DNA of 64,000 nt from Clostridia bacterium (GCA_030625885.1 DAOUPZ010000001.1:186001-250000); one strand, 5' to 3'. Positions 11,455 to 20,621 are shown, numbered from the stretch's first letter. Program-made: numbers and translations. The notes: generated by a model from the letters alone, not told the origin.

Positions 11455-12705
11455 ATGAAATATGAATTGAAGTATGCTAAGGGTACAGTGGAATTTGAAA
11501 TAAATGATAAAAATTATATGGGAGAATTGCTGCCAAATGAAGTTGAATACGATTTAACAGGCGAAGCTGAGGTAGAACGTGCACTACAAAGCCCTATCGG
11601 GACAGCAACAATAAAGGATATTGTAACGCCTGGTGAAAAGATTGCAATCATTACCAGTGATATAACAAGGCCTATGCCAAGTAAAATCGTATTACCGCCT
11701 GTCATCAAAGCTCTTAAACAAGCTGGAATTAAAGAAGAAGATGTAACGGTTGTTTTGGCCCGTGGGAGTCATAGAGGGCATACGGAAGAAGAGAAAAGAA
11801 ACCTGGTAGGGGAAGCGGTATTTGGAAGTAAAATAAATGTGATTGATAGTGACATGGACAATTGTATTAATCTAGGTAAATGCAATAACGGGACACCTGT
11901 AGATATATTTAGACCCGTTGCTGAAGCTGATCGAATTATCTGCATGGGCAATATAGAATACCATTACTTTGCAGGATATAGCGGCGGTTCAAAAGCGCTG
12001 ATGCCCGGTGTATCCAGCCATGATGCCATTCAGGCTAACCACTCCAACATGGTAAAAGAAGAAGCCTATGCTGGAAACCTAGAAACGAATCCGGTTCGAC
12101 AGGACATAGATCAAGTTGGAGCGTTTATAAAAATAGATTTTATTATAAATGTAGTACTCAACAAGAAGAAAGAAATTGTAAAAGCCGTAGCTGGTCATTA
12201 TATAAAAGCGCATAGAGAAGGCTGCAAATATTTAGATAAGATGTATGGCATACCAATTGATAAACAAGCAGATATTGTTATATTATCTCCAGGTGGATTT
12301 CCCAAAGATATTAATATCTATCAGTCACAAAAGGGGCTGGATAATGCCAAACATGCCGTAAGAGAAGGCGGGATCATTATTCTCGCTGCTTCAGCAAAAG
12401 AGAAATTTGGTGAAAAGACATTTGAAGATTGGATGCTCAATAAAGCACCCCAAGAAATGATTAAAGAAATAAAGGAAAACTTTAAATTAGGTGGTCATAA
12501 GGCTGCAGCTATAGCGATGATTTTACAAAAGGCGAAAATATTCATGGTATCAGATCTGGAAGATGAACTGGTAAGAAAAATTAATTTTGAACCATTTGCA
12601 ACCGTACAGGATGCAGTAGATGCAGCACTAAAAGAGTTAGGAGAAGATTCACAAATCATGATGCTGCCTGTTGCTGGATCCACTTTGCCAATATATAAGG
12701 GATAG
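11455..12705 (+). CDS. larA: LarA family protein (nickel-pincer-nucleotide racemase/epimerase)
   Basis: The 416-residue protein is in the lactate racemase LarA family, which uses a nickel pincer nucleotide cofactor to racemise or epimerise 2-hydroxyacids by hydride transfer. The key residues known from Lactobacillus LarA have counterparts: His106 (ARGSHRGHT), His170 (GNIEYHYF), Lys180 (YSGGSKALMPGV, the cofactor-linking Lys) and His196 (QANHSN). Length is usual. larB, larC and larE, needed to build the cofactor, are not in the window. LarA homologs act on many hydroxyacids, so lactate is only one option. It is monocistronic with its own terminator and has a GGGGGGAG ribosome site. Confidence 0.85.
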   Translation: MKYELKYAKGTVEFEINDKNYMGELLPNEVEYDLTGEAEVERALQSPIGTATIKDIVTPGEKIAIITSDITRPMPSKIVLPPVIKALKQAGIKEEDVTVVLARGSHRGHTEEEKRNLVGEAVFGSKINVIDSDMDNCINLGKCNNGTPVDIFRPVAEADRIICMGNIEYHYFAGYSGGSKALMPGVSSHDAIQANHSNMVKEEAYAGNLETNPVRQDIDQVGAFIKIDFIINVVLNKKKEIVKAVAGHYIKAHREGCKYLDKMYGIPIDKQADIVILSPGGFPKDINIYQSQKGLDNAKHAVREGGIIILAASAKEKFGEKTFEDWMLNKAPQEMIKEIKENFKLGGHKAAAIAMILQKAKIFMVSDLEDELVRKINFEPFATVQDAVDAALKELGEDSQIMMLPVAGSTLPIYKG

Positions 12706-16271: not shown

Positions 16272-16976
16272 TTGAACGGTATAAATTGTGAACGTAGGAT
16301 ATATGTCGATAAATTTAATACACATTCTCATTCATTTGCTCAATTAATTTTACCCCTTTATGGAATGCTTTATATAGAAACTAACTATAAAGAACTTATG
16401 CTAGATGATGAACATTTGTTCTTATTGCCTCCAGATTGTGAACACACCTTTAAGGCTGATAAGCGTAATGAATTTTTGGTTTTGGATATACCGCATCATA
16501 TGGTCACTAAACATGATATGGAAAAGATACTGGGTGGTGCTAAGTTTTTATTTGATGATAAATGGAAGGCAATAAGGTTTTTATTATTGAATGAAATTGA
16601 TGGTAAAAAAGGTTCTAGTTCAATTAACAGCTTATTTCATTATTTTTATCAAATGATTGCTAATGACAATACAGCTGATTCTGTAAAATATATTAATGAG
16701 AATTTCGCTGAAGAAATAGATTTAGAGACTTTAGCTCGTATTGAGCATTACAATATAAATTATTATAGCGAATGGTTTAAAAAGACGATGAAGGTTTCTC
16801 CTAAGGAATATATACAAAAATTAAGGGTTGAAAAGGCAAAAGAACTTCTTATAAACTCAGACTTTACAATATTACACATTGCTCAAATGGTAGGATATAG
16901 ACATAATTCTTCCTTGACTAGAATATTCAAAGAGTTAGAAAAAATAACACCTGCAGAGTTTAGAAGGAGAATATGA
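16272..16976 (+). CDS. AraC-family transcriptional regulator with cupin sensor domain
   Basis: The 234-residue regulator has an N-terminal cupin-like ligand domain (HSHSFAQLILPLYG, then FLLPPDCEHTF) and a C-terminal AraC HTH with two helix-turn-helix units (LARIEHYNINYYSEWFKKTM and ITPAEFRRR). It starts with TTG behind GAGGTG. It is transcribed toward the DMT transporter and the Prd-like genes, from which it is separated by a 138-base gap suitable for a regulated promoter. By position it is the likely activator of the selenoprotein operon, and its cupin may sense that operon's substrate. That is inference. Confidence 0.85.
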   Translation: MNGINCERRIYVDKFNTHSHSFAQLILPLYGMLYIETNYKELMLDDEHLFLLPPDCEHTFKADKRNEFLVLDIPHHMVTKHDMEKILGGAKFLFDDKWKAIRFLLLNEIDGKKGSSSINSLFHYFYQMIANDNTADSVKYINENFAEEIDLETLARIEHYNINYYSEWFKKTMKVSPKEYIQKLRVEKAKELLINSDFTILHIAQMVGYRHNSSLTRIFKELEKITPAEFRRRI

Positions 16977-17114
16977 AAATAAGCTAAGAAACAACTTGAT
17001 TTAGGAAAAGATTTATTTAAGCGATGAATTATAATAATATACATAAGAAGTTTTATAAAGAGCTATTCTACAAAATAGTTCTTTATTTTTTACAATTTTT
17101 GAGGAGGTATGATA

Positions 17115-18026
17115 ATGGAGAATTTGTTATCTAAAAGTAAAAAAATCAATGCATATTTTAATTTAGCGCTATGTATTTTATTATGGGCATCAATACCTGT
17201 AGCAACGAAAAAAATTCTTGTAGAGTTAGATAATTTACAAACGTTGTTTTATTCAACTATTTTATCAACACTTGTATTAGGGATATTGCTAATATTTCAG
17301 AAGAAAACGATAGATTTAAAAAAATACAATAAAAATCAATATATTAAAATGATTTCACTTGGATTTTTAGGTAACTATCTATATTATGTTTTCTTATATG
17401 GTGCACTTGAGAGAACAACCGCATCTGAAGGATTCATTTTAGCGTATACATGGCCTATGCTGGTTCTGGCATTGTCTTTTATAATACTTAAAGAAAAGAT
17501 CACTACAAAAAAACTAATAGGTGTTTTTATTAGTTTTTTCGGAATAATTATCATAACAACCAAAGGTGATATAACAGGTTTCAACTTAACAAGCTTATCA
17601 GGGGATGTATTAGCAATTAATGGAGCATTTGTTTTTGCATTGTTTTCAGTATTAGGTAAAAAATTTAACTTTGATAAAACGATAAGTGTATTTATTTATT
17701 TTTTTACTGCTTTAATTTTCTTAATACCAACTGTTGCAATTTTTTCTAAATTTGTTTGGCCAAGTTCGAAAATTTTAATCTGGATAATATATAATGGGGT
17801 ATTTGTAAATGGCATATCTTATATATTTTGGTTCAAAGCTTTAGAGAATGGGGAAACGCATATCATTTCAAATTTGCTGTATTTGACACCTTTTATTTCT
17901 TTAATTTATATTTCAATTTTTTTAAATGAAAAAATATTAACGAGTTCGATAATAGGACTTATAGTTATAATATTTGGAGTTTTATTACAATACTTTAAAT
18001 TGCATATTTTCAGCCGTGAAAGTTGA
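17115..18026 (+). CDS. EamA/DMT-superfamily transporter
   Basis: About 303 residues with ten predicted transmembrane segments and two EamA repeats, the second starting near LAINGAFVFALFSVLGKK. EamA proteins move amino acids, nucleotides or other metabolites, usually as exporters but sometimes as importers. GAGGAGG at 17101-17107 supports ATG 17115 rather than ATG 17109. The stop lies 41 bases before the PrdA-like gene, so it is the first gene of that operon and probably carries the reductase's substrate or product. Confidence 0.85.
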   Translation: MENLLSKSKKINAYFNLALCILLWASIPVATKKILVELDNLQTLFYSTILSTLVLGILLIFQKKTIDLKKYNKNQYIKMISLGFLGNYLYYVFLYGALERTTASEGFILAYTWPMLVLALSFIILKEKITTKKLIGVFISFFGIIIITTKGDITGFNLTSLSGDVLAINGAFVFALFSVLGKKFNFDKTISVFIYFFTALIFLIPTVAIFSKFVWPSSKILIWIIYNGVFVNGISYIFWFKALENGETHIISNLLYLTPFISLIYISIFLNEKILTSSIIGLIVIIFGVLLQYFKLHIFSRES

Positions 18027-18067
18027 GTTAATAATTAAAAAAAATATAATTAGGGAGGGTTTATAAT

Positions 18068-19543
18068 ATGTCAATTACTGAAGAAACAGGTCAATCACAT
18101 GGTAATGATGGTGATGTAACTCGTTGTAGATTCGAAACAGACACTGTGGTTGAAGCTTCAAATCTCGAAGCACAGAAGGGAAAAGAGATAAGAAAGCTTA
18201 GAAGAAAGTATTTTGAAATAGACAGGGTTGATTTTGGGTCTGAGACAAAAATAGAGGGGACAAAGCTGTATATAAGAGAAGATATTCTTAAAGATGCAAT
18301 TGCATCTCAAGAGTTGGTTGTAGATATGAAATTAGATATTATTACACCAGAAAGATACCAGGAATACAGTGAAACCATCATGGATGTTCAACCGATAGCG
18401 ACAAAAGAAGAAGGAGAACTAGGTGAAGGAATTACTAGAGTTGTAGATGGTGTTATTGTTATGGTAACAGGTACAGATGAAAATGGCATTCAAATTGGAG
18501 AATTTGGTTCTTCAGAAGGAATACTAGATAGAAATATCATGTGGGGCAGACCGGGATCACCAGAAAAGGGTGAAATATTCATAAAAACTGAAGTGAAAGT
18601 AAAAGCTGGTACGAGCATGATAAGGCCAGGGCCTATTGCGGCTCATGAAGCTACAGATTTTATTACTCAAGAAATAAGAGATGCTCTTAAAAAAGCAGAT
18701 GATTGCTTGGTTGTCAATGAAGAAGAATTTAATCAAGTACGACGTCTAGGGAAAAAGAAAGTAGTCATAGTCAAAGAAATTATGGGGCAAGGTGCAATGC
18801 ATGATAATTTCATTTTGCCGGTAGAGCCAGCAGGAACATTAGGCGCTAAGCCAAATATTGATTTAGGAAATGTTCCGGTTGTTGTATCACCCCTTCAAGT
18901 ATTAGACGGATGTATTCATGCATTAACATGTATTGGACCTGCTTCGAAGGAAACGACTAGACATTACTGGAGAGACCCTTTGGTAACAGAAGTAATGAAT
19001 GATGAAGAATTGGACTTAGCAGGCGTAATTTTTGTTGGTTCGCCACAAGTAAACTCAGAAAAATTTTACGTATCAAAAATATTAGGGATGACAATAGAAG
19101 CAATGGATATAGAGGGTGCTATTGTTGCTACAGAAGGTTTTGGAAATAATCATATAGACTTTGCAAGTCATATTGAACAAATTGGTATGAGGGGAATTCC
19201 AGTGGTAGGGGTGACATACTCAGCAGTTCAAGGACAATTAGTCGTTGGAAATCAATATATGACTGCGTTAATTGATAACAATAAATCAGCCAAAGGTATT
19301 GAAAATGAAATTCTTGAAAACAACTGTCATACTTCAGAAGATGCAATACGTACAGTATGTATGTTGAAGGCCAAAATGGGAGGGGAAGAAATAAAGAAAG
19401 CTGAAAGAGAATGGAATCCAAATGTGAAATTAAAAAACATTGAAGCTATAGAAAATCAAATTGGAATAAAAATTGATCTAGTGCTTAATGAACAATCATT
19501 AGAAAAGAGTAAAAAGAGAAAAGAAATTTACGAAGTAGAATGA
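18068..19543 (+). CDS. PrdA-like reductase proprotein (proline/glycine reductase component, predicted pyruvoyl enzyme)
   Basis: The 491-residue protein is homologous to D-proline reductase proprotein PrdA and to the GrdE/GrdG subunits of glycine/sarcosine/betaine reductases. The N terminus (MSITEETGQ, then TRCRFETDTVV) is PrdA-like. In PrdA a Cys is cleaved and converted to a pyruvoyl group that binds the substrate amine. The best candidate here is Cys288 in GCIHALTCIGPASKETTRHY. Cleavage before it would give fragments of 287 and 204 residues, the latter matching the roughly 23-kDa pyruvoyl subunit of PrdA. The N-terminal part is shorter than in PrdA, whose proprotein is about 620 residues from memory. 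The ribosome site is AGGGAGGG. The PrdB-like partner lies downstream. No prdC, prdD, prdE or proline racemase is nearby, so the substrate may not be proline. Confidence 0.85.
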   Translation: MSITEETGQSHGNDGDVTRCRFETDTVVEASNLEAQKGKEIRKLRRKYFEIDRVDFGSETKIEGTKLYIREDILKDAIASQELVVDMKLDIITPERYQEYSETIMDVQPIATKEEGELGEGITRVVDGVIVMVTGTDENGIQIGEFGSSEGILDRNIMWGRPGSPEKGEIFIKTEVKVKAGTSMIRPGPIAAHEATDFITQEIRDALKKADDCLVVNEEEFNQVRRLGKKKVVIVKEIMGQGAMHDNFILPVEPAGTLGAKPNIDLGNVPVVVSPLQVLDGCIHALTCIGPASKETTRHYWRDPLVTEVMNDEELDLAGVIFVGSPQVNSEKFYVSKILGMTIEAMDIEGAIVATEGFGNNHIDFASHIEQIGMRGIPVVGVTYSAVQGQLVVGNQYMTALIDNNKSAKGIENEILENNCHTSEDAIRTVCMLKAKMGGEEIKKAEREWNPNVKLKNIEAIENQIGIKIDLVLNEQSLEKSKKRKEIYEVE

Positions 19544-19556
19544 AAAAGGAGGGATA

Positions 19557-19805
19557 ATGATGAATAGACTAAAATATATGTCTTCTGAAAAATTTTTCGA
19601 AGGAATTATTGTGGGAATAGATGATTGTTCTGTAACAATAGATTTAAAAGGAAGAATGGGGCAACTTAAGGTTCCTCGAAGATTAATAATAACGAATTAT
19701 GAAATATTGCTAGGCCAAGAGGTTGGGTTTATGATGACTTATCCTGAAATATTAGGTCCGGATGTGGATGAAGAATATGAAGAAATTGCAATACGACAAC
19801 GATAA
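19557..19805 (+). CDS. Small protein between prdA- and prdB-like genes (CBO2463/CBO2479-domain type)
   Basis: The 82-residue cytosolic protein looks like a short beta-barrel (FFEGIIVGIDDCSVTIDLKG, then RMGQLKVPRRLIITN). It resembles the small CBO2463/CBO2479-domain proteins found next to proline-reductase-like genes in Clostridia; that name is from memory. It has a single Cys and no catalytic motif. AGGAGG ends five bases before ATG 19557. It lies 13 bases after the PrdA-like gene and 43 before the selenoprotein, so it is part of the operon. A structural or maturation role for the reductase is plausible but unproven. Confidence 0.65.
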   Translation: MMNRLKYMSSEKFFEGIIVGIDDCSVTIDLKGRMGQLKVPRRLIITNYEILLGQEVGFMMTYPEILGPDVDEEYEEIAIRQR

Positions 19806-19848
19806 ATAGAAAAAATAAAAGAGAAATAATTTAAGAGGAGGGAAAATT

Positions 19849-20574
19849 ATGAGTCTAACTATTGTAAAAGGACTACAATCTGAAATATTTGTTCCAATTA
19901 CGCCTCCAATAGTATGGACACCTGTATGGAAATCACTAAATGAAATGGTTATTGCGCTAGTATCTGGTGCAGGAGTACATTTAAAATCAGATAAAAGATT
20001 TAATTTAGCTGGAGATACAAGCTTCAGAATTATTCCAGCAGATGCGTCATGTGATGAATTAATGGTATCTCATGGAGGATACGATAATAAAGATGTAAAT
20101 AAGGATATTAACTGCATGTTTCCAATTGAGAGTATGCGGGAATTAGCAGAAAAAGGTATTATTAAAAGCCTTGCTCCAGTAAACATTAGTTTTATGGGAG
20201 GTGGTGGAGACATACGAGCTTTTACAGAAGAAACAGGTCCTGAAATAGCGAAAAAACTAAAAGAAGCGGGAATAGATGGCGTATTACTTACAGCAGGCTG
20301 AGGGACATGCCACCGCTCTGCCGTGATTGTGCAGAGAGCGATTGAGAAAGCTGGAATACCTACCATTATTATTGCCGCTTTACCTCCTGTAGCAAGACAA
20401 ACTGGTGCCCCTAGAGTATCAGCTCCATTAGTTCCAATGGGAGCCAACGCTGGAGAACCAAACAATATTGAAATGCAAACTGCTATTACATTGGAAACTT
20501 TAAAAGCATTAGTTTCTATTGAAATGCCAGGGAGAATTGTAAGCCTTCCATATCAGTATATTGCGCAAATATAG
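19849..20574 (+). CDS. PrdB-like selenoprotein reductase subunit (in-frame UGA = selenocysteine)
   Basis: The frame runs 150 codons to TGA at 20299-20301 and continues in the same frame for 90 codons to TAG at 20572-20574. Reading TGA as Sec gives 241 residues with Sec151 in LLTAG-U-GTCHRS, i.e. a U-X2-C redox motif (Sec151, Cys154). Length, motif and Sec position agree with PrdB, the selenoprotein subunit of D-proline reductase, which reductively cleaves a C-N bond with the PrdA pyruvoyl subunit. Protein similarity continues naturally past the UGA (VPMGANAGEPNN, typical of the family). A stem-loop just after the UGA serves as SECIS. Ribosome site is GAGGAGGG. A stop-terminated 150-residue protein and a separate 83-residue ORF are artefacts of the UGA. 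The substrate is unknown. Confidence 0.92.
20299..20340 (+). promoter_or_regulatory. Selenocysteine UGA codon and predicted SECIS hairpin
   Basis: UGA is at 20299-20301. The stem CTCTGC (20316-20321) pairs with GCAGAG (20331-20336) and is extended by CG (20314-20315) with CG (20339-20340) past a two-base bulge. The apical loop CGTGATTGT contains G and U residues. The stem starts 12 to 14 bases after the UGA, within the range for bacterial SECIS elements inside the coding region. The window contains no selA, selB, selC or selD. Confidence 0.75.
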
Positions 20575-20585
20575 TATAAATTCAA

Positions 20586-20621
20586 GGTTTCCCATCTTGA
20601 TCTAGATCAAGATGGGAAACC
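20586..20621. terminator. Perfect 36-bp palindrome after the selenoprotein operon
   Basis: GGTTTCCCATCTTGATCT is followed immediately by its exact reverse complement, with no loop bases. It lies 12 bases after the selenoprotein stop and between convergent genes. It lacks a clear T tract, so it may be a factor-binding site or a mRNA 3'-end stabiliser rather than a classical terminator. Confidence 0.6.

Follow-up and report, generated by a model that had tools for sequence, protein, structure and literature searches.

A PrdA/PrdB-type proline-reductase operon with an internally shortened PrdA in a Clostridia genome without a recognised PrdC or proline racemase

In the studied enzymes, cleavage of the proprotein PrdA falls between the Thr and the Cys of a Thr-Cys pair, this Cys is converted to a pyruvoyl group to which the substrate binds, and the selenol of PrdB carries out the reductive cleavage (PMC3091704, PMC9908766). 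PrdC has been proposed to re-reduce the Se-S bridge of PrdB through CxxU, thioredoxin is used by glycine reductase, and PrdG is the proposed exporter of 5-aminovalerate (PMC3091704). The prd genes are activated by PrdR (PMC6615313). Clostridium botulinum has a second set of prd genes, without prdD and prdE (PMC3091704).

The window, i.e. the whole 64,000-nucleotide stretch of DNA that was analysed, belongs to a draft genome of 39 contigs (98% complete), for which genome-wide absences were established by profile searches. The features under study are the following:

16272..16976, + strand: AraC-family regulator, 234 aa (Pfam HTH_18 and AraC_binding above cut-off)
17055..17098, + strand: possible terminator or leader attenuator in the araC-eamA gap, an A+T-rich hairpin followed by a U-rich tract (folding)
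17115..18026 (start 17109/17115), + strand: EamA/DMT-type transporter (PF00892, two repeats, 137 bits)
18068..19543, + strand: PrdA-like proprotein, 491 aa (TIGR04480, 800.2 bits, cut-off 700, model positions 162-587 only)
18068..18169, + strand: vestigial N-terminal stub of PrdA, residues 1-34, MSITEETGQSHGNDGDVTRCRFETDTVVEASNLE (alignment, structure model)
19557..19805, + strand: small CBO2463-domain protein, 82 aa (NF041553, 82.2 bits, cut-off 50)
19849..20574, + strand: PrdB-like selenoprotein, 241 aa, Sec151, UxxC (TIGR04483, 389.7 bits, cut-off 300)
20299..20340, + strand: UGA-Sec codon and SECIS-like hairpin, CGCTCTGCCGTGATTGTGCAGAGAGC (nucleotide conservation)
20586..20621, no strand assigned: 36-nt perfect inverted repeat, GGTTTCCCATCTTGATCTAGATCAAGATGGGAAACC, in the convergent gap between the prdB-like and glycosyltransferase genes (-26.6 kcal/mol, z = -7.1)

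A sequence-only reading of the window had described the transporter, the PrdA-like protein, a small protein and the PrdB-like protein in tight order with the AraC regulator directly upstream, and open reading frames were found at these places, in this order and intact throughout the EamA-PrdA-CBO2463-PrdB operon. In known prd loci, the place of the AraC-family regulator is taken by the sigma-54 activator PrdR, and a PrdR-like ORF of ~580 aa, recognised by eye, comes first in several of the compared loci. Neither a PrdG- nor a PrdR-like gene lies beside the prdA/prdB of the window. The hairpin in the araC-eamA gap (fold z = -2.69, 3 of 200 shuffles equally good) lends weak support to a terminator or attenuator. 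The 36-nt palindrome, which is terminator-like on the - strand and present in a single copy within the window, is probably a terminator. No RNA was found in the region by Rfam search, and the IMG/VR scan gave no match. Elsewhere in the window, a LarAH6-family nickel-dependent malate racemase is encoded at 11455-12705 (561 bits, cut-off 500); two Gate-domain proteins and a protein with a metallo-beta-lactamase fold are encoded downstream of it.

Both subunits score above their equivalog cut-offs (PrdA 800.2 against 700 bits, PrdB 389.7 against 300 bits). The Grd-type equivalogs are matched far below theirs (59 bits against 780 for GrdG, 90.7 against 800 for GrdF), and the PrdB of the window is no full-length GrdB. 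In the trees of PrdA (support 100/99) and PrdB (97/94), the window groups with the locus L085 of genome G080, with Tissierella simiarum (L091), and with L087 and L086. Its PrdA is 75.5% identical to the PrdA core of G080 (a genome with a complete prd locus), 73% to that of Tissierella simiarum and 69% to an Acetoanaerobium PrdA; its PrdB is 73% identical to that of L085. The PrdA end branch of the window (0.48) is like those of its intact neighbours (0.49 and 0.42), and thus the core is not decaying. Among 131 PrdA columns without variation in 17 other representatives, four are changed in the window, two in the stub (A16D, C19R) and two in the core (E185I, V264I), and it retains ~122 of the 124 core positions that are invariant in 29 conventional PrdA proteins. 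In PrdB, one of 86 invariant columns is changed. Since the proteins sit in the proline-reductase clade, score as equivalogs and keep nearly all invariant residues and the motifs, no new family is proposed: as judged from sequence, the enzyme derives from an authentic D-proline reductase and its catalytic core is complete. The pattern of residue conservation is that expected of a functional enzyme that has retained the ancestral chemistry.

This placement bears on the earlier suggestion of a substrate other than proline, which was to be abandoned if both proteins fell inside authentic proline-reductase clades, prdC, prdF and other genes were encoded elsewhere in the genome and the enzyme acted on D-proline. 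Both proteins do fall inside that clade, which goes half way against the suggestion; the partner genes were not found (see below).

Sec-containing prd loci were also observed in Enterococcus, Tetragenococcus and Gemella (among L091-L103). Plasmid-borne prdA occurs in Terrisporobacter, Enterococcus raffinosus and Ligilactobacillus salivarius, with alignments that begin at query residue 23 or later. Proline reductase seems to be subject to horizontal transfer, with lactic acid bacteria among the recipients.

The standard PrdA starts with ~85 conserved residues (MSIT-ETA-EH---AV-CCR-E-GTII---NLEDP-I-PDLEDSGLL), followed by a disordered linker with a short IKIHIGEGK hairpin and then by the core. 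The PrdA of the window is not a full-length protein with this N-terminal Cys-Cys domain. It had been read as N-terminally shorter (491 against ~620 aa); the difference in length is real, and the alignment ascribes it to ~130 residues missing inside the protein, directly after residue 34, not to a later start. In the stub that is left, Arg stands in place of the first of the two cysteines of the invariant CC motif (C19R). Because a stub of the domain is retained and followed by a jump to the core, the short PrdA is read as the product of an internal loss from an ancestor that possessed the domain, and not as a primitive short form. In the structure model of the window PrdA, residues 41-240 have pLDDT values of mostly 80-98 and residues 1-40 of 47-61, so the stub is predicted to be disordered, whereas the model of a complete PrdA (L077) predicts the whole domain well. 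The predicted self-cleavage site, T287/C288, lies in the conserved motif ALT287-C288IGPASKE. A detached, split or relocated N-terminal domain was searched for elsewhere and is not encoded, and further sampling of the order and class surrounding G080 and G150 yielded no other shortened PrdA. Sequence and fold searches of the PDB gave no relative of PrdA; the lost domain had a SAF-like fold match at E = 0.017, below the cut-off and a weak hint. The PrdA of G080 (L085 12255-14357, - strand, 700 aa) appears to have the N-terminal domain twice, the second copy being divergent.

The PrdB gene is read through an in-frame TGA at 20299-20301, within the conserved motif TAGUGTCHR. Selenocysteine decoding at this codon is credible, since the genome has a tRNA-Sec, several GrdB-type genes and a GrdA read through TGA, and since the hairpin after the TGA is conserved. 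In most Sec homologues this SECIS-like hairpin matches almost nucleotide for nucleotide, even in the fused ones, whose proteins are only ~56% identical to that of the window, and it is degenerate in the homologue of G204 (L078), in which Cys replaces Sec. It shows no unusual stability compared with shuffled sequences; its support is nucleotide conservation.

The small CBO2463-domain protein is a regular member of prd operons: homologues 31-62% identical lie between prdA and prdB of other prd loci, and it is the prdA-prdB spacer gene in nearly all of those compared. The AraC regulator and the EamA transporter had no counterparts in the other prd-type loci (EamA searched by tblastn). The best partial model matches of EamA are exporter families (92.7 bits for TIGR00950, 89.5 bits for the YddG model, both below cut-off). 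EamA may be a candidate product exporter, replacing PrdG, or a substrate permease; import of the substrate by it is unproven.

The sequence-only reading had pointed out that prdC, prdD, prdE and proline racemase are absent, and this holds for the whole genome as well as for the window. The best matches to PrdC reached 53 bits against a cut-off of 490, and the top two resemble NuoF/HydB-type proteins by eye. There were zero PF05544 matches for the proline racemase PrdF, and PrdD and PrdE were not found, as a single PrdA-type gene came out of the genome profile search and its remaining matches were all Grd relatives. The absence of prdD and prdE alone is not unusual, being seen also in Tissierella simiarum (L091). 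The genome encodes at least five GrdE/GrdB-type gene pairs (contigs C9, C12, C15, C16 and C20; L080-L084) and, in its glycine reductase operon, the thioredoxin TrxA and GrdA. Contigs C15 and C16 both end inside near-identical grdB copies, which suggests collapsed repeats. With PrdC and the racemase missing, the enzyme cannot work exactly as the textbook D-proline reductase. The operon is thus an orphan, and the earlier doubt about the textbook pathway was justified; the proposed change of substrate has no positive evidence, because both proteins lie in the proline-reductase clade with a nearly unchanged invariant core.

Fused PrdA-PrdB selenoproteins of ~643 aa with one UGA and without the N-terminal Cys-Cys domain were found in three further genomes (G005, G051 and G090; loci L074-L076):

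L074 8851-10791, - strand: fused PrdA-PrdB selenoprotein
L075 9518-11449, + strand: fused PrdA-PrdB selenoprotein
L076 8924-10855, - strand: fused PrdA-PrdB selenoprotein

No description of such a fusion was found in the literature searched. In L075, genes for a sodium:solute symporter and an amidohydrolase precede the fused gene, and in L076 it lies on the opposite strand, beyond glutaminase-proC-proB-proA; the neighbours of the fused genes indicate no single substrate. The fused form is the only PrdA/PrdB type in G051 and G090, both of which are without PrdC and racemase.

The co-occurrence of the PrdA N-terminal domain with its partners was compared in 28 genomes with PrdA-type cores, of which 25 have the domain and three (the genome of the window, G051 and G090) do not. 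PrdC was above the cut-off in all 25 genomes with the domain and in none of the three without it (Fisher p = 0.0003, relatedness ignored). Proline racemase was present in 24/25 and 0/3, respectively; in the sole domain-bearing genome without it (G291), the contig with the prd genes is 8.9 kb long. The fusions of G051 and G090 form a deep branch of their own, so the association is drawn from two independent lineages. Both the GrdE of the source genome and the fused proteins begin directly at the core, without an N-terminal domain. On the simplest view, the domain would belong with PrdC-dependent electron supply. Within the clade of the window, secondary loss of the domain is seen in one genome only, so the losses of domain and PrdC could also be unrelated neutral events.

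With the domain, PrdC and the racemase lost, the enzyme probably has another electron donor and perhaps another substrate. The best explanation, held with moderate confidence, is a PrdC-independent minimal proline-reductase core that would be served by another dithiol donor and act on D-proline, or an analogue close to it, acquired from outside. By homology with the studied enzymes, the proprotein would cleave itself at T287/C288, Cys288 would become the pyruvoyl group that binds the substrate amine, and Sec151 of PrdB would reductively open the alpha C-N bond and be left in an oxidised Se-S bridge. Without PrdC another dithiol must act on this bridge, and the thioredoxin in the glycine reductase operon is the natural candidate and the simplest donor to propose. 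In an ordinary PrdA, the N-terminal domain that is lost here would be the portion that works with PrdC. As there is no racemase, D-proline would come from outside or from an unrecognised enzyme, or the substrate would be a close relative; the most likely substrate would be environmental D-proline or a cyclic amino acid close to it, which would yield 5-aminovalerate or an analogue, and EamA would export the product (or import the substrate). Against this explanation, E185I alters an otherwise invariant core residue.

The same change could be taken to mean that the substrate has shifted from proline to some other amino acid, cyclic or N-substituted, for which EamA would be the importer and AraC the sensor. 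Such a shift would fit the absence of both PrdC and proline racemase from the genome and the presence of a regulator and a transporter not found in other prd-type loci. Residue 185 is Thr in all three fusions, and two of their genomes are also without racemase. Because 15 of the 124 positions differ in all fusions, a shared change at 185 would arise by accident about one time in four, and E185I, with another residue in the fusions, was not accepted as a specificity signature. The shift nevertheless seems unlikely, given ~122 of 124 core positions kept, an ordinary branch length, nesting within proline reductases, and an EamA whose closest models are exporters. The genes could also be the decaying remains of an earlier, partially deleted proline reductase operon that now does little or nothing; this view would account for the lost partner genes and for a deletion within a folded domain that leaves a useless stub with C19R. 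It is a distinctly improbable reading beside the intact frames, the retained Sec codon, SECIS-like hairpin and invariant residues, the tight spacing with EamA and a PrdA branch no longer than those of intact neighbours. That this is an ordinary D-proline reductase, with PrdC and racemase merely missing from the draft assembly, could be argued from the 39 contigs, the 98% completeness and the breaks of C15 and C16 within grdB copies. However, three kinds of partner gene are absent together, and any missing prdC contig must carry the racemase too; in other genomes these partners adjoin prdA, and here a single contig spans the operon and both of its flanks. The shortening of PrdA and the adjoining AraC and EamA genes are features of the assembled sequence itself, and a gap in the assembly is therefore very hard to credit.

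Extended beyond this genome, the preferred PrdC-independent core leads to a more tentative proposal, possible but short of probable: a class of PrdC-independent enzymes may have arisen at least twice, as the shortened PrdA with PrdB and as the fused PrdA-PrdB of G051 and G090. The domain would be absent because it serves PrdC, electrons would come from thioredoxin, and the substrate would not derive from L-proline via racemase. What is new here is the anatomy, i.e. the coupled loss of the PrdA N-terminal domain and PrdC, which is more informative than the substrate claim. An enzyme that appears to have kept its core without the domain and PrdC would offer a direct test of the link between the two, and it is a simpler object to assay and crystallise. 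The presence of annotated PrdA and PrdB does not imply a proline Stickland pathway.

The operon shares the Thr-Cys pyruvoyl site, the UxxC of PrdB and the CBO2463 gene in between with D-proline reductase (EC 1.21.4.1; Acetoanaerobium sticklandii, Clostridioides difficile; TIGR04480/TIGR04483), and differs from it in the ~130 deleted PrdA residues and in having EamA and AraC in place of the usual genes. Unlike a complete prd system, its genome has no PrdC, PrdD, PrdE or racemase. The prd locus of Tissierella simiarum is similar in the absence of prdD and prdE, but it has kept the PrdA N-terminal domain, and prdC, prdB and the racemase gene are beside prdA. Component B of glycine/sarcosine/betaine reductase (GrdE/GrdB) also combines a pyruvoyl proprotein with a Sec subunit and has no N-terminal Cys-Cys domain, and Grd systems receive dithiols from thioredoxin through GrdA; the component is only ~22-29% identical to the window, its GrdB has an extra N-terminal half and its product goes to GrdA. 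The fused PrdA-PrdB is one 643-aa chain with ~45% (PrdA part) and ~56% (PrdB part) identity to the window, forms a deep separate clade, and has other neighbours and no small protein, yet it shares with the window the absence of the N-terminal Cys-Cys domain, the same catalytic motifs and the SECIS-like hairpin.
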